Positions 42,433 to 60,579 of a DNA stretch of 64,000 nucleotides are shown here, piece after piece. The number at the start of each line of letters is the position of its first letter. Positions within the stretch are counted from its first letter, which is position 1. The notes beneath the pieces are model-generated. The model searched no databases and was not told where the DNA came from. It saw only the letters and a program-made list of their open reading frames with translations. Source of the stretch: Pseudomonadota bacterium (GTDB lineage Bacteria > Pseudomonadota > Gammaproteobacteria > Burkholderiales > Rhodocyclaceae); NCBI GenBank assembly GCA_018262095.1, contig JAGTRW010000004.1, positions 124,001 through 188,000 on the forward strand. Reading direction: 5' to 3'. The position numbers were made by a program, and so were the translations under genes.

Positions 42433-43350
42433 TTAGGTTTCCAGCGCGCCGATCAGGCTCTTGACGTCGGCGACGCCGTTGGCCACCAGCCAGGCTTCCA
42501 TCTCTTCGGCGATCGTTTGCGCGGCGCCGGGGTTGATGAAACTCGCGGTGCCGACCTGGACCGCGCTGGCGCCGGCGAGAATGAACTCGAGCGCATCGGT
42601 GGCGTTCATGATGCCGCCGATGCCGACGATCGGCACCTTGACCGCCCGCGCGACCAACCAGACCATGCGCAGCGCGACCGGTTTGATCGCCGGACCGGAG
42701 AGACCGCCGGTGATGTTGGCCAGCACCGGACGGCGTTTCTTAAGGTCGATCGCCATGCCGATCAGCGTGTTGATCAGCGACAGCGCATCGGCGCCGGCGT
42801 CGACGCAGGCGTGCGCCATGGCGACGATGTCGGTGACGTTGGGCGAGAGCTTGACGATCAGCGGTTTCTTGGTCGCCGCCCGACACGCCGCGACGACGCT
42901 CGCGGCGCAGGACGGATCGGTACCGAAGACGATCCCGCCCTGCTTGACGTTGGGGCACGAGATGTTCATCTCGAGCGCCGCAATTTCGGGGATCTCGTCG
43001 AGGCGGCGCGCCATCTCGGCGTATTCGTCGATCGTTCCGCCAAAGAAGTTGGCGATCGCCGGCGTGTCGACGGTACGCAGAAAAGGCACTTTCTTGGCGA
43101 CGAAGGCGTCGATGCCGACGTTCTGCAGACCGATGGCGTTGAGCATGCCGCCCGGCGTTTCGACGATGCGCGGCGTCGGGTTGCCGGCGCGCGGTTTGAG
43201 ACAAAGCCCCTTGGTGACGAAGGCGCCGATCTTGTGCAAGTCGACGTGCTCGGCAAATTCCGCACCGTAGCCGAAGGTCCCCGATGCCGTCATGACCGGA
43301 TTGCGCAGGGCAATTCCGGCGAGGTTGACGCTCATGTCAGGCGTGCTCAT
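42433..43350 (-). CDS. pyrDB: Dihydroorotate dehydrogenase, NAD-dependent catalytic subunit (type 1B)
   Basis: 305 residues. Oxidises dihydroorotate to orotate with FMN; electrons leave through PyrK to NAD+. Class 1B features: [15 protein letters not shown] at the start of the barrel, [11 protein letters not shown] with the catalytic cysteine of class 1 enzymes, KLSPNVTDI, and [20 protein letters not shown] near the phosphate site. Start ATG 43350 overlaps the pyrK stop (ATGA). An upstream Met in the same frame falls inside pyrK and is rejected. With pyrK and pyrE nearby it is the intact dihydroorotate oxidation route in this window. Confidence 0.94.
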
Positions 43351-44180
43351 TTCTGAAACTCCCATTTGAGTTCGCTGGAATCGAAGACCGGCCCCTCGGT
43401 GCATACGCAGCGGTAGTCGGGCGTTTCCGGTGAGTGCCCGTGGCCGGTCGCGACGCAGCCCAGGCAGGCGCCGACGCCGCAGGCCATGTAGCCTTCGAGC
43501 GAGACCTGGCAGGGAATCTTGTAGCTTTCGGCAATCTTCGCCACGGCGTTGAGCATGCCGTCGGGTCCGCAGGCGTAGAGCGTGGCCTTACCTTTGAGCG
43601 CGTCGAGGCGGCGCTTCAAGGCCTCGGTCACCAGCCCCTGCTCGCCCAGCGAACCATCCTCGGTGGCCGTATAGCATTCGACGCCGAGGCGCTTGAATTC
43701 GGTGATGCACAGGATGTCGTCGCGGCTTCTGCCGCCGGCGAAAAGGCGCACCGGCGATTTCTTCTCGGTGAGTTCGCGGGCCAGCAGGTAGAGCGGCGCG
43801 AGTCCGATGCCGCCGCCGACCAGCAGCTTTTCCTCGTCAGGCTTGCCCTGGTCGAAGCCGGTGCCGAGCGGGCCGAGAATGTCGAGCAGATCGGTCTCGT
43901 GCAGCGCGGCAAGCATCGCCGTTCCCTTGCCGACGACGCGGTAGAGCATTTCGAAATACGGTTGCGGCAGCGAACCGCTTTGCGGCGGCGTATAGACGCC
44001 GACGTCGAAGACGGCGAACGGGCGGCGCAACAGCGGATCGATCGCGCCGCTGACGCGAACCATGATGAACTGCCCGGGCGTTGCTGCCGAGAACGCCGGC
44101 GGCGCGGTCAGGCGCATGCGCCAGTAGCCGGGAGAAATCTCGACGTTGGAAAGGATCATCGATGTGAACTGCACGAGCAT
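43347..44180 (-). CDS. pyrK: Dihydroorotate dehydrogenase electron-transfer subunit PyrK
   Basis: 277-residue flavoprotein of the ferredoxin-NADP reductase type. N-terminal FAD-binding beta barrel with RRPFAVFDV, then an NAD-binding domain with [16 protein letters not shown]. The C-terminal [2Fe-2S] site has the PyrK cysteine pattern CGVGACLGC...[10 protein letters not shown]. It transfers electrons from PyrDB to NAD+. Start ATG 44180 has a strong AAGGAGA SD. It is coupled by 4-base overlap to pyrDB. The 106-bp gap upstream separates it from the small unknown gene, so it may have its own promoter. Confidence 0.93.
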
Positions 44181-44286
44181 TCTCCTTGTGTCTTTTGTGC
44201 TGCTTTGGGCGCGACTTGGGCTGACGACACCGCCGCTTGGCAGCGGTGCGCCGCCGGCTGATCCATTGCGATACTTCGCGGCCGGC

Positions 44287-44613
44287 TCAGAATTCGGGAA
44301 CTCGCAGTTGGTACTCGGCGGCGACTTCGCCGAGAAGCGCCAGGCGGGTGTCGGCATCGGATGCCAGCGCCTGGCTGATCTTCTGGTTGAAGCGGACGAG
44401 AATCTCCTTGGCGCGGTCGGAAAATTCACCGGAAACGCCCTGGTCTTCGTATTGAGCGACATACGAATGAGCGGCGGTGCCGATCACGAAATAAAGGCCG
44501 GCATTGGCCGAGTCGCGGCTCATCAATTCAAACATGTCCTTGTAGAGGCGTTTGAAGTCGTCGGTTCCGGCGCCTGAGTTGCCGAATCGGTCGGCTGCGT
44601 CTTGAAAGTTCAT
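44287..44613 (-). CDS. Small helical hypothetical protein (108 aa)
   Basis: Starts at ATG 44613, overlapping the pyrE stop, with AAAGGA acting as SD. The sequence is helical and soluble: NFQDAADRFG, FKRLYKDMFELMSRDSANAG, an aromatic AAHSYVAQYEDQG section and a C-terminal helix. There are no cysteines and no catalytic motif that I recognise. Its tight coupling to pyrE and position before pyrK suggest it belongs to the pyr operon, but no role can be assigned. Confidence 0.7.
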   Translation of the reverse strand: MNFQDAADRFGNSGAGTDDFKRLYKDMFELMSRDSANAGLYFVIGTAAHSYVAQYEDQGVSGEFSDRAKEILVRFNQKISQALASDADTRLALLGEVAAEYQLRVPEF

Positions 44614-45353
44614 ATCAATCCTTTCGTTTCTGGTTTGACGGAGGATTTTCCGCCGTGGGCGTGCGACCAACGAATCGGGTCGGCCAGGAAAATTTCCAGT
44701 TCAGCGAGTTCGCGCGCGGTGAAGGCTGAGTTCTGACGCGCGACCGGCAAAACGTCCTGCCAGGTGGCCAGCGAATGCACGGTGACGCCCATGGTATCGA
44801 GCACCGTTTTGGTCGGAAAGGTGCCGTAGTCGAAGATCACGAAGACATCGCTGACCTGCAGGCCGGCCTCGGCAATCGCCCGGCAGCTATTGACGACCGA
44901 ATGGCCTCCCGACATCAGGTCGTCGACCAGCAACACGCGATCTCCGGGGTGGGTCACGCCAACGACCTGTCGGCCCGGCCCCAGGCCTTTGCGCTGCTTG
45001 CGGACGTACTGCATGGGCAGTTCGAGGGCGTCGGCGATCCAGGCGGCGAGCGCGATGCCGCTCGCCTCGGCGCCGGCGACCGAGGCAATTCCGTCGAGGC
45101 AATGGCGCTCACGCAGCAGATCGAGCGCGTAATGAACCAGTTTGCGTCGCAGGTCGGGAAACGAAATCAGCCGCCGGCATTCCATGTAGACCGGGCTCGC
45201 CCAGCCCGACGGCAGGCGGAAAGGCTCATCCGTATGAACCTCGATGCACCCCGCCGAGAGCAGCGAGCGCGAAACGTCCTCGGCCGTATTGGAATGACGC
45301 GGGGCGGGAGAAGGAGTGGCTTGGGTCACGGGTGAGCTCCGAATTGCGTTCAT
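44610..45353 (-). CDS. pyrE: Orotate phosphoribosyltransferase
   Basis: Transfers the ribose-5-phosphate of PRPP to orotate, forming OMP. 247 residues. The PRPP-binding loop is VLLVDDLMSGGHSV; the catalytic-loop Lys region is MQYVRKQRKGLGPG; SGWASPVYMECRRLISFPDL matches the N-terminal hood. The N-terminus is ~25 residues longer than E. coli PyrE. Start ATG 45353 shares one base with the regulator stop (TAATG), so translation is coupled to an XRE-type regulator, which is unusual for pyrE. Confidence 0.9.
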   Translation of the reverse strand: MNAIRSSPVTQATPSPAPRHSNTAEDVSRSLLSAGCIEVHTDEPFRLPSGWASPVYMECRRLISFPDLRRKLVHYALDLLRERHCLDGIASVAGAEASGIALAAWIADALELPMQYVRKQRKGLGPGRQVVGVTHPGDRVLLVDDLMSGGHSVVNSCRAIAEAGLQVSDVFVIFDYGTFPTKTVLDTMGVTVHSLATWQDVLPVARQNSAFTARELAELEIFLADPIRWSHAHGGKSSVKPETKGLI

Positions 45354-46276
45354 TATGACCGGGTCCGGTCGAGCAGCTTGCGCAAATGCGCCGCGCCAGC
45401 CTTGCCTTTGTGCGCGGTTTTCCATAAACGGTCGATCATTTCATCGTACATTTTCACAGGTTCGGGCGAGGCTGTCACCATGGCAATGCCGTTGCGGATA
45501 TTGGGCAGCTCGCCGAGCCTGAATGGGCTCACCGCCAGCAGCGATCTGCCGGCGGCAAAAAGCAGCTGAAAACTGGTCGCCGGCATGGCATCGTCGACCA
45601 GCCCGATCTGCACGTACATCGGCTCGTCGTCCATCAATTCGGCGATCCGGCGAACCTCCTGCCTCGCCGCCTCAATGCGCTTGCGGCGAATGGTTTCGCT
45701 GACGTCCAGGTTGCCGACCAGACCGGTGTGCAGGAAGCGCTTGAGCTCGCGCAAGCCGATCAGGCTCACGATGTTGGGGCGCTGCTTGGCGAAAGAGTTC
45801 TTGCGTTCCTGCAAGATCGTCAGGATTCGATCGACCTCGGCGGCGAGCGAGCTGCTGCTGTCGTTCGCGCTCGTCTCTTGGGGCAGGGATTCGAGCAGCA
45901 TCAGCCGCAGGTAATCAAAATATTCGTCCGACGCCAGCAGCAGCGAAATCGGCTCGAAATGGGCGACGATGCGCTCGGCGCTTTGCTCGATTTGGCGCAT
46001 GCGTTCGAGGAAGCCAAGCGCCGTCGAGTAGTACTCGACTTCGACGCCGAGCAGCGAGGCCATCGAGGTGCCGAGCAGTTGCGCCAGCCTTTCGATCGTC
46101 TCGATCTTGACGATTTTTCCCTGTTCCATGCGATAGACCACCGCGCGCGAGACGCCGAGCTCTGCGGCAACGTCTTCGGCGAGCAGGGAAGCGCCGATGC
46201 GGTAAGCGCGCAGGCGATTGCCCAGCTCCTCGTAGTTGATCGACGAGAGGAATGATGGCGTGTGATCTTTTGGCAT
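45353..46276 (-). CDS. XRE-type helix-turn-helix regulator, coupled to pyrE
   Basis: 307 residues. N-terminal Cro/CI-type HTH (about 15-75): LRAYRIGASLLAEDVAAELG, then VSRAVVYRMEQGKI and LAQLLGTSMASLLG. The ~225-residue C-terminal part is helical then alpha/beta (MYVQIGLVDDAMPATSFQLL, SLLAVSPFRLGELPN) and probably binds a small effector. Its stop overlaps the pyrE start, and the carbamoylase gene ends 34 bp upstream. I infer that it controls this metabolic cluster; the effector may be a pyrimidine or ureido compound, but that is speculation. Confidence 0.82.
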   Translation of the reverse strand: MPKDHTPSFLSSINYEELGNRLRAYRIGASLLAEDVAAELGVSRAVVYRMEQGKIVKIETIERLAQLLGTSMASLLGVEVEYYSTALGFLERMRQIEQSAERIVAHFEPISLLLASDEYFDYLRLMLLESLPQETSANDSSSSLAAEVDRILTILQERKNSFAKQRPNIVSLIGLRELKRFLHTGLVGNLDVSETIRRKRIEAARQEVRRIAELMDDEPMYVQIGLVDDAMPATSFQLLFAAGRSLLAVSPFRLGELPNIRNGIAMVTASPEPVKMYDEMIDRLWKTAHKGKAGAAHLRKLLDRTRS

Positions 46277-46310
46277 GGTGCTTATTTACGGGTTCCGTTC
46301 TCGCGGCGGC

Positions 46311-47567
46311 TCATGACAGGGCGTTGATCGTTTGCTCAAGGACCTGGACGCCCTGCATGAAGTCACTCATTTCCATCGCCTCGTCGGGATTGTGCGAGCC
46401 GTTCTGGTTGCGGATGAACAGCATGCCGCTCGGAATTCCGGCATTTTCGAACAGCGAAGCGTCGTGTCCGGCGCCGCTGGGGATGACCTCAAAAGGCGTT
46501 CCCTGCTCGGCGCAGGTTTTTGACAACAGGTCGCAGAGCTGCCTATCCATGACCGCCGGATTCGACAGCAGGCGGCGGTCAAACTCGAAACGCACCTGTC
46601 GCTCGCGGCTGATCGCGGTGCATTCAGCGCGCATCAACTGGTAGAAGGCTTCGAGCGTGTCGATGCTCTTGCTGCGCACTTCGAAACTGAATTTGACCTG
46701 GCTCGGGATGCGCGTGACGGCGTGTTCGGCCGGATTGGTCGACATGATTCCGCTGGTCACCACCAGGTCGGTGCCGCGCTCGAGCAGCACGCTCCAGTGC
46801 TCGTCGAGGCGCATGATCAGGTCGGCGACGGCGAACAAGGCGTCGCGGCGCAGCCAGCGCGGTACGGCGCCGGAATGGCCGGCTTCGCCGATACACTGTA
46901 CGGTGTTGTGGCGGATGTTGCCGCGAATTCCGGAAACCACCGCCAGCGGCAGCTTGCGCGCGACCATCACCGGCCCTTGTTCGATGTGCAGCTCGAGATA
47001 GGCGCGAACCCGGCTCGGGTCGAACAGCGGTTTCTGCAGCTCGATGGCCGCGAGGTCGGCACCGACGCGCTGCAGGCAGGTGGCCAGAGAGTCGCCCGTA
47101 TTGCGTTGCTTGAGTGCCAGATCGTCGCTGTCGAGCTGACCAAACAAGGCGCTCGACCCGCAATAGGCCTTGCCGAACCAGGCGCTTTCCTCGCCGCGAA
47201 TGCCGATCACCTGCAGCGGAACGGCCGACGGCTTTCCCGACTGTTTCTGCGCCAGCAGGCAGAGCAAGCCGGCGACGACTCCGGCCAGGCCGTCGTAGTT
47301 TCCCCCCTGGGGGACCGAGTCGAGGTGCGAACCGCACCACACCGAGGCGCCTTCGGCGCAAGTCTGCGGCAGGCGAAACAGCAGGTTGGCGGCGCGGTCG
47401 CTGCTGACCTCGAGCCCTTGCTCGACGGCGAACTCGCGCAAAAAGTCGGCGGCGACCGATTCGCCGCTGCCATAACTCTCACGCGTGACGCCGACGCCGT
47501 CGGAGGTGAGTTCGCGAATTTTTGAGAAAAGCATCTCGGCGACTGGGCGCAGTTCCAGAATGTCCAT
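46311..47567 (-). CDS. M20-family N-carbamoyl-amino-acid hydrolase / allantoate amidohydrolase-like enzyme
   Basis: 418 residues from ATG 47567, the usual length for HyuC/AmaB/AllC enzymes. Two-metal site motifs: WCGSHLDSVPQGGNYDG (His, Asp), IRGEESAWFGKAYCGSSALF (Glu), and YLELHIEQGP. The dimerisation/lid domain is between about 210 and 325. The GEES sequence replaces the commoner NEEG, so substrate preference may differ from classical L-carbamoylases. Candidates are N-carbamoyl-beta-alanine, ureidosuccinate or allantoate. The MFS gene upstream and pyrE downstream suggest ureido/pyrimidine salvage, by inference. Confidence 0.85.
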   Translation of the reverse strand: MDILELRPVAEMLFSKIRELTSDGVGVTRESYGSGESVAADFLREFAVEQGLEVSSDRAANLLFRLPQTCAEGASVWCGSHLDSVPQGGNYDGLAGVVAGLLCLLAQKQSGKPSAVPLQVIGIRGEESAWFGKAYCGSSALFGQLDSDDLALKQRNTGDSLATCLQRVGADLAAIELQKPLFDPSRVRAYLELHIEQGPVMVARKLPLAVVSGIRGNIRHNTVQCIGEAGHSGAVPRWLRRDALFAVADLIMRLDEHWSVLLERGTDLVVTSGIMSTNPAEHAVTRIPSQVKFSFEVRSKSIDTLEAFYQLMRAECTAISRERQVRFEFDRRLLSNPAVMDRQLCDLLSKTCAEQGTPFEVIPSGAGHDASLFENAGIPSGMLFIRNQNGSHNPDEAMEMSDFMQGVQVLEQTINALS

Positions 47568-47673
47568 GCAGGGTTTCCAGGAATTTATTCGGCAGGCTGC
47601 GTACGACGCAGACAAATCTTGGTCGTCAATTGACGCGCGTGGCAAAAGGTATATCGGGTGAAACCGGCCAGGC

Positions 47674-47696
47674 CGCCCAGACTTGAAGTCTGGGCG
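47674..47696 (-). other. Strong intergenic hairpin between MFS and carbamoylase genes
   Basis: Perfect 10-bp stem CGCCCAGACT / AGTCTGGGCG with a 3-base loop, flanked by outer complementary CCGGCC/GGCCGG arms. It has no T-run. In the leftward transcript it lies 23 bp after the MFS stop and could be an mRNA-stability or partial-termination element. Confidence 0.5.
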
Positions 47697-47718
47697 ATCG
47701 CCCGGCCGGGCAATCTTT

Positions 47719-48966
47719 CTACTTGAGTTCCGTACCCTTGAGTTCCGGGATCAGGAACACCGTGGCGACCATGTCGGCCAGGTAGATCAAGGCCAGCAAC
47801 GCAATCGCGGTCTGGAACGAATACGCCGTGGCCAGCGCGCCGACGACGACCGGGCCGAAGCCGCCGACGCCGCGACCGATGTTGAAGAGAACGTTCTGCG
47901 CGGTGGCCCGCGCTTCGGTCGGATACGCTTCCGACATCACCGCGCCGTAGCCGCCCATCATGCCGTTGACGAACATACCGAGCAGCGCGCCGGCCCACAA
48001 CATGGTCGTCGGGTCGGAAAGGCTCGAATAGACCAGCACCATGACGACGGCGCCGGTCTGGAACAGCAGGAAGCTCGGCTTGCGGCCGATGCGGTCGGCG
48101 AGCTGCCCGAAGATCCAGATGCCGGACATCATCCCGACGATGGTGACGGCGGTCCACATCGACGATTTGGTGAGGTTGAAGCCCAGTTGCTTGGCGAGGA
48201 AGTTCGGCATCCAGATCATGATGCCGTAATAGCCGAAGTTCTGCACCGAGCACAGCACGACGACTCCGGCGCTGATTTTGGCCGTCGCTTTGTCCTTGAT
48301 CAGCAGCTTGAACGCTTCACCGAGCGACTTGCGCTTGGCGGTGGTTTTGACGAACAGCTCGGGCTCGTGCAACCTGTTGCGGATGAACCAGGCGACGAAG
48401 GCCGGAATCACGCCGACCAGGAACATGCCGCGCCAGCCGATCGCCGGCAGCAATACGGGTGTCAGCAAGGCAGCGGCCAGCACGCCGATCTGCCAGCCGA
48501 GCGCGACATACGAGGTGGCTTTGGCGCGGTGCTTGGCCGGCCAGGCCTCGGCGGCCAGGGCCATGCCGATGCCAAACTCGCCGCCGAGGCCGATGCCGGC
48601 GACGGTGCGGTAAATCAGCAGATCCCAGTAGCCGGTGGCAAAAGCACACAGTCCGGTGGCCACGGCGAAAAGAACGATGGTCCAGGTGAGCACCCGAATG
48701 CGGCCGAAATGATCGCTGAGCGCACCAAAAATGAGCCCGCCGGCGACGGCGCCGATCAAGGTCCAGGTGACCAGTGATCCGGCTTGCGTCGGCGTGAAGT
48801 GCAGTTCGGCCGAAATCGACGACAGCATGAAGCCCAGGATCAGCAAGTCAAAGCCGTCCATGGCGTAGCCTACGGTCGATCCGGCCAGAGCCTTCCAGCC
48901 GTAACTGCTGACCTGGTGCCCGTCGCTTCCAACATCTGAAGCGACCGGGGTGGCGGTGGTATTCAT
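47719..48966 (-). CDS. MFS transporter (AAHS/sugar-porter-like)
   Basis: 415 residues, twelve predicted helices. Both copies of the MFS loop motif are clear: GALSDHFGRIR after TM2 and GQLADRIGRKP after TM8. AMDGFDLLILGFML near the start is typical of the aromatic-acid:H+ symporter and related organic-acid families, and GGEFGIGMALAAE is the TM5 motif. It probably imports an organic acid by proton symport. As first gene of the cluster with carbamoylase, regulator and pyrE, the substrate may be a ureido acid or pyrimidine derivative (inference). Confidence 0.87.
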   Translation of the reverse strand: MNTTATPVASDVGSDGHQVSSYGWKALAGSTVGYAMDGFDLLILGFMLSSISAELHFTPTQAGSLVTWTLIGAVAGGLIFGALSDHFGRIRVLTWTIVLFAVATGLCAFATGYWDLLIYRTVAGIGLGGEFGIGMALAAEAWPAKHRAKATSYVALGWQIGVLAAALLTPVLLPAIGWRGMFLVGVIPAFVAWFIRNRLHEPELFVKTTAKRKSLGEAFKLLIKDKATAKISAGVVVLCSVQNFGYYGIMIWMPNFLAKQLGFNLTKSSMWTAVTIVGMMSGIWIFGQLADRIGRKPSFLLFQTGAVVMVLVYSSLSDPTTMLWAGALLGMFVNGMMGGYGAVMSEAYPTEARATAQNVLFNIGRGVGGFGPVVVGALATAYSFQTAIALLALIYLADMVATVFLIPELKGTELK

Positions 48967-56038: not shown

Positions 56039-56590
56039 TCAGGCGACGCGCTTGAGCTGTTTGATCTCGATCACCGGATACTTCCACTTCCAGCTGTCGA
56101 TGTTCTCGGTGATCCGCGCCATGCTGATGCATTCGACCGGACACGGCGGCAGGCACAGCTCGCAGCCGGTGCACAAGGCGCCGACGATGGTGTGCATTTG
56201 CTTGGCGGCGCCGACGATGGCGTCGACCGGGCAGGCCTGGATGCACAGCGTGCAGCCGATGCAGGTTTGCTCGTCGATGATCGCGACCTGCTTGGGTTTT
56301 TCCTCGGCGTCGAGCGGCTTGACTTCGCGACCGAGCAGGTCGGCGAGCTTGCGCACGCCTTCCTGGCCGCCGGGCGGGCACAGATTGATTTCGGCTTCGC
56401 CTTCGGCGATCGCTTCGGCGTAGGGCTTGCAGCCCGGGTAGCCGCATTGCCCGCATTGCGTCTGCGGCAGGATGGCCTCGATTTTTTCGACCAGCGGGTT
56501 GCCTTCGACCTTGAACTTGATCGAGGCGTAACCGAGCGCCGAACCGAGCACGATGGCGCCGAGCGCCATGATCAGGATCGCGGTGAGCAT
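56039..56590 (-). CDS. rnfB: Ion-translocating oxidoreductase subunit RnfB
   Basis: 183 residues. One N-terminal membrane helix (about 3-25), then a [4Fe-4S] domain with [19 protein letters not shown] and a later C, followed by two ferredoxin-like cluster motifs [16 protein letters not shown] and [16 protein letters not shown]. It is the likely ferredoxin-docking subunit. Start ATG 56590 shares one base with the rnfA stop (TAATG). A long open extension upstream overlaps rnfA in another frame and is not real. Confidence 0.95.
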
Positions 56591-57174
56591 TACTGGTACT
56601 TGTCCAGGCCGGCGAAGCCCATGAAAGCGAGGCTCATCAGCCCGGCGGTGACCATCGCGATGGCGACGCCGCGAAAATGAACGGGAACGTCGGCGCCTTC
56701 GACGCGTTCGCGGATTCCGGCGAAGAGCACCAGCACCAGCGAAAAACCGATCGCGCTGCCGGCGCCGAAGAGCAGCGACTCGACGAAGTTGTACTGGTTG
56801 GCGACGTTGAGTAGCGGAACGCCGAGCACCGCGCAGTTGGTGGTGATCAGCGGCAGGTAGATGCCCAGCACTTGGTGCAGCACCGGGCTGGTTTTCTGGA
56901 TCACCATCTCGGTGAGCTGGACGATCGCCGCGATGGTGACGATGAACGACAGCGTGCGCAGGTATTCGAGCCCGAACGGCATGAGCAGGAAGTGGTCGAT
57001 GACGTAGCTCGCGCCGGTCGCGACGGTGAGCACGAAGGTCGTCGCCGAGCCCATGCCGAAGGCCGTTTCCACTTTCTTGGAAACGCCCATGAACGGGCAC
57101 AGGCCGAGGATTCTGACCAGCACGACGTTGTTGACCAGCACAGCGCCGACGATGATGAACAGGTAATGGGTCAT
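56590..57174 (-). CDS. rnfA: Ion-translocating oxidoreductase subunit RnfA
   Basis: 194 residues, six membrane helices, homologous to NqrE. Conserved half-helix cysteines lie in [17 protein letters not shown] and [15 protein letters not shown], where a membrane [2Fe-2S] cluster is shared with RnfE. Start ATG 57174 gives the usual MTHYLFI N-terminus. First gene of rnfABCDGE-nth, transcribed leftward from a promoter at about 57230-57257. Confidence 0.95.
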
Positions 57175-57228
57175 GGGTGGCCGGGCGGGAAAAGCCTGCA
57201 AAGGCTGCAGGGGCGGCAAAGCGTTGCG

Positions 57229-57257
57229 ATTATCCGCTATTGGCGGGGGGCATTCAA
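57229..57257 (-). promoter_or_regulatory. Sigma70-type promoter of the rnf operon
   Basis: On the minus strand TTGAAT (57257-57252), exactly 17 bp, GATAAT (57234-57229). It lies 55 bp before the rnfA start, in the only sizeable gap upstream of the operon. Confidence 0.55.
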
Positions 57258-57286: not shown

Positions 57287-58303
57287 TTACGCTTTTCTGG
57301 CCTTGGCGATCGCTGCTGCGGCCTCGGCGATCAGTCCGGGGCCGCGATAGACCAAGCCCGAATAGAGTTGCACCAGACTGGCGCCGGCGTCGATCTTGGC
57401 CTGCGCGTCGGCGCCTGAGACGATGCCGCCGACGCCGATGATAGCCACTTCGCCGGCCAGCGCGCGGGCGAGTTTGCCGAGCACGCGTGTCGACTTTTCG
57501 AACAGCGGCGCGCCCGACAGGCCGCCGGCTTCGCTGGCGTTCGGCAAGCCGTCGACGCCGTCGCGCGCGAGCGTGGTGGTGGTCGCGATCGCGCCGTCGA
57601 TGCGCTGCGCGCGCAGCCGGTCGGCGATCGACTGGATCTGCCCGTCGTCAAGATCGGCGGCGATCTTGATCGCCAGCGGAACGTACTTGCCGTGTTTGTC
57701 GGTAAGCCGCGCCTGCTCGGCCTTGAGGCGCGAAAGCAGCGCGTCGAGCGTGTCGAGCGCGTTGTTGGCGCCCGAAATATTGATCGCGATATAGCTTGCC
57801 GCGCCATAGACGCGTTCGACGCCGATCAGGTAGTCGTCGGCGGCTTTTTCGCTCGGCGTGTCGAAATTCTTGCCGACGTTGATGCCGACGATTCCGCCGC
57901 GGCGCGCGAACTGCGCGCTCGCGAGGTGGGCGAGCAACTGGTCGACGCCGCAGCTGTTGCCCCCCAGCCGGTTGATGATCGCCTGGCTTCCCCCAACGCG
58001 GAACAAGCGCGGCTTGGGGTTGCCCGGTTGCGGGCGCGGCGTCACCGTACCGATCTCGATGAAGCCGAAGCCCAGCGCAGCGAGCGCATCGACGTGTTCG
58101 CCGTCCTTGTCGAAGCCGGCGGCGAGGCCCACCGGGTTGGGGAAGTCGATGCCCATCACGCGTACCGGATCGGACGGCGGCGCTTTCGCCAGCAGGCCGG
58201 CGATTCCCGCGCGGTTGATGAAGTCGATTCCATTCATCGCCAGGCGATGGGCGGTTTCGGGGTCGAGCGCGAAGAGAAGTTTGCGGATCAATGAATCAGG
58301 CAT
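57287..58303 (-). CDS. pyrD: Class 2 (quinone-type) dihydroorotate dehydrogenase homologue lacking the catalytic loop
   Basis: 338 residues with the overall class 2 fold: N-terminal membrane-associating helices (about 1-30), [41 protein letters not shown] and the FMN-phosphate site [17 protein letters not shown]. Two functional motifs deviate. NRMGFNN (E. coli 111-117) reads NRLGGNS. The NISSPNTxxLRxLQ loop, which contains the catalytic base Ser175 of E. coli PyrD, is replaced by [10 protein letters not shown] (about 175-184). This looks like an in-frame loss of about 11 residues. FMN binding may survive; dihydroorotate oxidation is doubtful. An intact PyrDB/PyrK pair exists at 42433-44180. 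Confidence 0.82.
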
Positions 58304-58452: not shown

Positions 58453-60579
58453 GTGGGCAATTCCTCTTTTCTTGCTGCTTTGCAGTTGCTATCCAGCCAT
58501 CGCTGGCTCAGAGCGATCCGCAACAGTCTGGTGCTGCTGCTGCCGGTCATTTTTGTCGGGGCGCTGGCGCTGTTGCTCGGCAGTTTTCCTTTCGCCATCC
58601 TGCTGCCGCAGACGTCAGTGGAGGTGTGGCGCGATTTGAGCCATCTGGCGCTGCTCGTGTGGCAGGCGAGCGGCGGCATCCTGGCGCTGTGCCTGGTGGT
58701 GCTGATCAGTCACTATCTGGCTGTCGATGCCAGAGAAAGGCGGGTCGCCGAAGTTTCACCGCCCTTGGCGGCGACCGTGGCACTGGTCAATCTCTTCATC
58801 TTCACCCAGCTTTTCCTGGGGCCTGATGTCCACCTCTGGATGTTCGGCGCACGCAGTACGCTGATCGCCATTCTGGTTGCCATTTCGAGTTCCGAGTTGC
58901 TCTTCCTGTGCTTGCGTTGCAAGGCGCTACGCGTCGGACGCCAGACCTACGTGCTCGACCCCAGCCTGCATCTGGCCGTTCGTGCCATCGTCCCGGTGCT
59001 GACGACGGTGCTGGCGTTTTTGCTGCTCAGCAAGGCGCTGTCGCTGTTTCATCCCGACTTGAGCCGCTCGATCGGCGTCGGCCTGCTCCGGCTCGACCAG
59101 GCTTTCGCCAGCGAATTGCCCGGATTGCTGGTGCTCAGCGTCCTGCATCAACTGCTCTGGTTCGTCGGTATCCACGGAACGAATGTGTTGGAAAACGTTT
59201 TTTCCGTTCTGTTTTATTCGGCCGGCGATGGCCGGCAAGTCCTCGGGATGTCGAAGACGCTTTTCGACCTTTACGTGCATGTCGGCGGTTCGGGGTCGAC
59301 GCTCGGCCTGCTGCTGGTCATCCTGATCCGTCACCGGTCCGGCGACTCCGGGCGCGTCGCTCGCTACGCGCTGATTCCGTCGCTGTTCAACATCAACGAG
59401 CTGGTGATTTTCGGCCTGCCGATCGTCTTCAATCCGGTCTATCTCGTTCCCTTCGTTCTCGCGCCGCTGCTGCAGATCGTCGTGAGCTACCTGTGCATTC
59501 GTTACGGGCTGGTCGCTCTCGATGTCGTCGCGGTGCCCTGGATCACCCCGCCGCCGCTGGCCGGGATGATCAATTCAGCAAGCTGGCATGGCGCTGCGCT
59601 GCAGCTTTGCAATCTGCTGATGAGCGCCGCGGTTTATTCGCCATTCGTCGGTTTCGCCGAGCGGCAAGGACATCGCGAGGGGCTCGGCAATGTGCAGCGA
59701 ATCCTTTCCGAAATTGAAGGTATCCGGGTTCAGTCGAGCAGCGTTCTCAGTCGCCACGACGACATCGGCCACACCGCGCGCAAGCTGGTCCACGAATTCA
59801 TTCAGGACCTTGGAAGCGAGCGGGTCTTTCTCGCCTATCAGCCGCAGCACGACGTCAGTCAGCGGGTGGTCGGCGTCGAGGCGCTGCTGCGCTGGAAACA
59901 CCGCCATTTTGGCTTGATCTCGCCCGGCGTCATCTGCGTGTTGCTTGAAGAAGCCAATCAGATCTGCGCCTTGGGGCGCTGGACGATCGTTGTGGCGTGT
60001 CGGCAGTTGCGCGACTGGAAGTTGGCGGGGATCGAAAATCTGCGCGTGTCGGTCAATCTGTCGCCGCTGCAGCTCAAGGACGCCGGGCTGCTGCCGCTCG
60101 TCGTCGAGTGTTTGCAGGGCAATCACTTGCAGGCGGGCGAGCTGGCGCTGGAGCTCACCGAGTCGCAGCACGTTCCCGACGACCGGGAATCGGTGCAAAC
60201 GCTCAAGGCGCTGCAAGCGATGGGGATTCATCTCGAGATGGACGATTTCGGCATGGGTTACAGCTCGATGCTCTATATCCGGCGCTTTCATTTCGACGCC
60301 ATCAAGCTCGACGGCTCATTGACTCGGGAGGTGCTGCAGAGCAATAACTGCCGCGACATCATCGCCTCGGTGGTGCAACTGGCTCGTGCGCTCAAGATGC
60401 GGGTCGTTGCCGAGTACGTCGAAACCCGCGAACAGCAGGAACTGCTGGCTAGACTTGGCTGCGATGCTTTTCAGGGGTATTTGTACAGCCCGGCGCTGGT
60501 TGGTGAGCAATGCCTCGACTATCTGCGCGAGCGGGCGTCGGTCGGCGACTGTCGGCCAGTCACGGCTCAAGCCACCTGA
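58453..60579 (+). CDS. PTS EIIC-like membrane domain fused to EAL c-di-GMP phosphodiesterase
   Basis: 708 residues from GTG 58453. Residues ~1-400 form a lactose/cellobiose-type EIIC transporter domain with ~10 helices. Its signatures are [10 protein letters not shown] (near 240) and [20 protein letters not shown] (near 312). Residues ~440-700 form an EAL domain with all catalytic blocks: [35 protein letters not shown] and [10 protein letters not shown] (Tyr where Gly is usual). No EIIA or EIIB domain or gene is nearby, so the EIIC part may be a sugar sensor rather than a transporter. It should degrade c-di-GMP at the inner membrane. Confidence 0.88.

Follow-up and report, generated by a model that had tools for sequence, protein, structure and literature searches.

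The reading frame at positions 57287–58303 (minus strand) of the window, by which we mean the whole 64,000-nucleotide stretch of DNA analysed, encodes a degenerate class 2 (quinone-type) PyrD. It belongs to the same family as canonical class 2 PyrD (TIGR01036 / NF003646) and keeps the flavin residues and the N-terminal helices, but it has lost the catalytic serine, Thr178, Phe115 and Asn246, and its lid loop is incomplete. The class 1B enzyme PyrDB-PyrK has probably made it redundant, and we seem to have caught pyrD after the loss of catalysis and before the arrival of stop codons or frameshifts.

The frame, which starts with an ATG at 58303 and whose stop codon ends at 57287, is intact over 338 amino acids, with neither an internal stop nor a frameshift. 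Its translation scored 352 bits against TIGR01036 (cut-off 200) and 458.5 against NF003646, exceeding the cut-off of 457 by 1.5 bits. An AlphaFold model gave a confident PyrD fold (pLDDT 92.3, pTM 0.92), in which the class 2 barrel carries its N-terminal helical extension, with the helices present and conserved. As found by Foldseek, the nearest solved structure is 7ut5 from A. baumannii (53% identity, TM 0.93), and the E. coli class 2 enzyme 1f76 matched the model with a TM of 0.92. By sequence, place and fold, the frame is a real class 2 PyrD. That the family models label it "dihydroorotate dehydrogenase" despite the lost catalytic residues is a warning.

We aligned the variant with 105 other class 2 sequences, comprising 65 genome_contigs loci, 28 family loci, 11 from the genus and the E. 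coli sequence, whose numbering we use. The 65 genome_contigs loci had been found with patterns made from the variant PyrD and are thus not a random sample; the best of them is 59% identical to it, and none is evidently of this genus. Eleven positions that are invariant in 105/105 others are altered in the variant. Seven carry substitutions (F115G, N117S, S175G, P176A, T178N, P220A and N246T) and four residues are deleted (L181, R182, L184 and Q185). The sequence-only reading had described a class 2 PyrD without its catalytic serine and part of its lid loop, as alignment and family models now bear out; P176A, T178N, P220A and N246T had escaped it.

Where 11 full-length PyrD of the genus, 28 of the family and the 65 genome_contigs sequences read NISSPNT..LR.LQ, the variant has [10 protein letters not shown]; the twelfth PyrD of the genus (G007) is interrupted by a contig break at this loop and stands outside this comparison. 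The catalytic Ser175, found in all 105 others, is Gly, and seven residues are absent from the lid loop SPNTxxLRxLQ. The alignments and the model place the remnant of the lid and catalytic-serine loop, [11 protein letters not shown], with S175G, P176A and T178N, at 57749–57781 (minus strand), and by alignment the deletion point lies at about 57754/57755 on the same strand. The gap amounts to seven codons (21 bases) and not to the in-frame removal of 33 bases first supposed. In the dihydroorotate-site segment at 57953–57973 (minus strand), NRMGFNN has indeed been replaced by NRLGGNS; two relatives (G001 and G006) share M113L, so it is F115G and N117S that are the telling changes. N246T, at 57578–57580 (minus strand), turns ATNTT into ATTTT and removes what we take to be the substrate-site asparagine of class 2 PyrD, while T178 and F115 presumably have catalytic or substrate-site roles. 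Kept in the variant are N177, T247 and all the checked positions that we take to serve flavin binding (K66, N111, N139, N172, K217, T245, G268, G297 and Y318), in agreement with the earlier impression that the FMN-binding parts are normal. Only residues 179–181 of the model form a stretch with pLDDT below 50, leaving the lid poorly defined, whereas in a canonical control (L073) residues 181–185 form a helix, the block means are 91 and there is no such stretch. The catalytic serine of class 2 enzymes, S175/S215 (PMC6611227, in excerpt), deprotonates C5 (PMC12862964, in excerpt), and the human loop 212–224 is implicated in orotate release, with Asn217 contacting orotate (PMC12268739, in excerpt). 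Judged by its residues, the variant should not oxidise dihydroorotate.

In 70 columns at least 99% of the other sequences agree, and the variant differs at 12 of these. The substrate-plus-lid set was changed at 9/16 columns against 3/54 outside it (Fisher p 3e-5), at 5/12 against 3/54 without the deleted columns (p 0.004) and, for the substrate set alone, at 4/10 against 4/56 (p 0.015); these p values are indicative, since the sets rest on general background about the family, were partly prompted by the finding and include the segment that drew attention. Outside the substrate and lid set, universal columns changed less often than genus-only ones (3/54 versus 25/144, one-sided Fisher p 0.02). 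At columns invariant in nine compared relatives, the variant pyrD is changed in 34 of 216, while the same measure gave 0–9 of 182–191 for each of the nine relatives (for pyrD, without G007, G008 and G009). The corresponding counts for other genes of the same genome were 4/124 for nth, 2/141 for rnfE, 3/195 for rnfD, 9/345 for rnfC and 0/149 for rnfA. The strong acceleration is in pyrD, the neighbouring rnf genes and nth are not comparably accelerated, and the changes in pyrD are not chance.

For the dN/dS comparison that had been proposed we wrote a two-ratio codon model, which gave an omega of 0.227 on the variant branch versus 0.062 elsewhere (LRT 32.0, p 2e-8). With the active-site segments excluded the values were 0.230 and 0.071 (LRT 22.2), and with a topology like that of the PyrD tree 0.222 and 0.060 (LRT 33.9). 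An omega of 1 on the variant branch was also rejected (LRT 30.9; 25.8 to 37.5 across model versions). No omega shift significant at 0.05 was seen on the control branches G012 (0.063), G026 (0.072) and G003 (0.111). Constraint is relaxed over the whole protein, yet it is not absent over the whole branch; coming from a single sequence, this pattern is as compatible with selection that ended recently as with selection that continues more weakly. We considered stop codons as a decay clock and rejected them, since a G+C-rich neutral simulation, with the gene's own fourfold-site composition as equilibrium, yields few stops. At 14% protein change a neutral copy had a 60% chance of carrying none, so their absence here is uninformative.

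The same window encodes a class 1B dihydroorotate dehydrogenase, PyrDB-PyrK, which catalyses the same reaction, as the sequence-only reading had recognised (42433–44462). The catalytic subunit PyrDB, with the motif NISCPNV, is found at 42433–43404 (minus strand) and scored 442 bits against NF005574 (cut-off 269). The PyrK-like electron transfer subunit, at 43347–44462 (minus strand) and probably with an internal true start, passed the cut-offs of PF10418 and PF00175 and scored 183 bits against NF000799, below its cut-off of 314. The genome thus holds a partner of overlapping function, and PyrDB is presumed to be the working replacement. It is of a different class from the variant PyrD, with 30% identity, and is not its source. 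Class 1B is NAD-linked (PMC6611227, in excerpt), and for P. putida, whose PyrD was described as a bottleneck under anoxia, the quinone-independent pyrK-pyrDB was chosen as an addition (excerpt of PMC6805499).

Within the genus (28 genomes), class 2 stands alone in 12 (in G007 as two parts at two contig ends) and class 1B alone in 12, G020 has no more than a class 1B fragment of 40 aa, neither class is present in G019 or G021, and both occur together in 1/28, the window's genome. Class 2 PyrD and class 1B PyrDB therefore exclude each other in the genus, the window's genome excepted, in drafts of which some are less than 90% complete, so that single absences are weak. This exclusion gives comparative support to the earlier suggestion that pyrD is decaying because PyrDB/PyrK does the job. 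Across 150 genomes of the family, three had a class 1B match of this type with E below 1e-100, all of them in this genus, and the next best match stood at 2e-29. For class 2, 145 genomes gave E 4e-68 or better; G015, G027, G091, G100 and G119 had either no class 2 or a short fragment of it. Either PyrDB-PyrK is a late gain by this lineage or it is older and was lost in the sisters; the topology of the PyrDB tree differs from that of the core tree. In 9/12 class-1B genomes pyrK-pyrDB shares a contig with nth or FIST and follows it; G002, G027 and the genome of the window have an operon in between, and the contigs of G011, G015 and G024 do not show the placement.

The core tree, built from nth and RnfE, D, C and A for 26 of the 28 genus genomes, pairs the window's genome with G012 (support 99) and then with G026 (support 72), both of which have canonical PyrD only. 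The place of the variant in the PyrD tree is poorly supported (nearby supports 17–47), and its branch there measures 0.416 versus 0.123 for G012; the core-tree lengths of 0.140 for the window's genome and 0.081 for G012 indicate a lineage that is somewhat fast in general. The variant is the only degenerate PyrD among the readable ones in the genus and is known from one genome. A search of 399 genomes of the order for this exact motif found it in no other PyrD, the other 398 genomes being without it. At the DNA level the pattern occurred in 6/399, including the genome itself, the other five in unrelated short frames.

The stop codon of pyrD is followed, 67 bases downstream, by rnfA (56590–57219, minus strand), the first gene of the rnf-nth run. 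The same order, with pyrD directly before rnfA and 57–135 bases from its aligned start, was seen in 11/12 class-2 genomes of the genus, the exception being G003, where the two are 2.2–2.3 kb apart; the flanks of the variant pyrD are syntenic with those of relatives. We rejected this adjacency as a functional clue: being ancestral, it gives no hint of the rnf-linked role that had been suggested. Operon polarity on rnf was also considered as what might keep the pyrD frame open; the gap holds one promoter-like site at 57257–57229 (minus strand; chance mean 0.2), so rnf may have its own promoter. Upstream of rnfA (1.5–4 kb) in nine class-1B-only genomes plus G020 and G021, no trace of pyrD exceeded the shuffled controls. 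The relic search over 14 genomes without class 2, of which G018, G025 and G019 had fewer than 300 bases upstream and G017 was left out, had a best E of 0.053 versus 0.067 for shuffled sequence. With no trace in the nine class-1B-only genomes, complete loss appears as the usual state. In G000, a second RnfA-like match (58% identical) within the same genome, at contig C51:143307–143891, suggests perhaps two rnf clusters.

Redundancy would account for these results as follows. The class 2 PyrD of the genus, still at its ancestral place before rnfA, would have been made dispensable by NAD-linked PyrDB-PyrK, whose genes this genome carries downstream of nth/FIST and which would free pyrimidine synthesis from quinone. 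Selection for dihydroorotate oxidation on PyrD would then have lapsed. The serine that abstracts the proton would have been lost, and with it relay residues nearby, an asparagine of the substrate site and some of the lid loop, while fold and flavin residues were largely kept. Orotate would now be made by PyrDB-PyrK, presumably the acting enzyme here. The gene would be at a "neutralised" stage, its function dead before stops or frameshifts appear, with eventual loss to be expected; class-1B-only lineages would be past this stage. Relaxed selection on the branch, as expected of a neutralised gene, is seen here, and an omega of about 1, as expected if selection were wholly absent, is not; a recent onset of relaxation would also give an omega below 1 on the branch, and the residual constraint may reflect the time before relaxation. 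A parallel is Wolbachia ruvA, neutralised while recG, whose function overlaps, remains (PMC4224334); it shares with our case a function-impairing residue change, relaxed selection and a partner that is kept. Unlike recG, the partner here is another class of the same enzyme, confined to this genus in the family sample, and the pyrD case is known in one genome only.

The main rival, possible but on balance doubtful and less likely than redundancy, is that the protein became a pseudoenzyme with a new FMN/quinone-dependent or regulatory task once PyrDB-PyrK had taken over, its substrate site being remodelled under residual purifying selection while FMN, the N-terminal membrane/quinone part and the barrel were retained. 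The intact flavin positions, the conserved N-terminal helices, a branch omega of 0.22–0.23 and the excess of losses in the substrate-plus-lid set, also without the deleted columns, would all fit such a role, and dead paralogs are reportedly kept as partners, as in trypanosomatid deoxyhypusine synthase (PMC3663545). Yet that omega is nearly four times the background, the adjacency to rnf is ancestral, and one sequence allows no new conserved motif to be seen. Occurrence in a single genome, with the exact motif missing from PyrD of the other 398 of the order, together with clear redundancy, makes this explanation the less likely one.

Redundancy must also be weighed against a variant that still oxidises dihydroorotate, with a shorter lid and an atypical active site. 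This we regard as improbable: its fold is good, K66, N111, N172, N177 and T247 are kept and both family cut-offs are passed (NF003646 barely), but the C5-deprotonating serine is Gly, and T178, F115 and N246 have changed as well. Class 1 dihydroorotate dehydrogenases use a cysteine as base, and no cysteine stands at the serine position here. Moreover, the activity of the E. coli enzyme reportedly requires a conserved loop (Bjornberg, 1999). An assembly or sequencing artefact is very improbable, even in a draft of 82 contigs, because the changes are spread over the whole gene with the frame intact: besides the in-frame loss there are 33 substitutions at 210 columns invariant in 11 relatives, and both the fourfold-site composition and the syntenic flanks resemble those of relatives.

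Quinone-linked and NAD-linked enzymes for the same essential step thus substitute for each other within one genus. The kind of event is already known; the value of this case is as an evolutionary snapshot, in which one can see what went first (the catalytic residues and the lid) and what still stands (the fold, the flavin residues and a frame without stops), and which makes the timing of enzyme replacement testable. None of the literature matches listed, as titles and abstract beginnings, describes a degenerate PyrD that accompanies PyrDB. G146, from another genus of the family, encodes a second, divergent (43%) class-2-like protein at contig C4:23558–24358 beside a normal PyrD. A gene divergent from pyrD, at 58453–60579 (plus strand) of the window, encodes a protein that joins PTS EIIC and EAL (c-di-GMP phosphodiesterase) domains, each above its Pfam cut-off. 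Finally, pyrK and pyrDB lie in a run at 42433–48966 (minus strand), common to G002 and G027, with genes for an MFS transporter, an M20 N-carbamoyl hydrolase-like protein, an HTH regulator and a divergent orotate phosphoribosyltransferase that narrowly misses the pyrE cut-off; the window's genome also has, on contig C72, a pyrE that passes it. This run could be an operon for the uptake and use of orotate or carbamoyl-aspartate.
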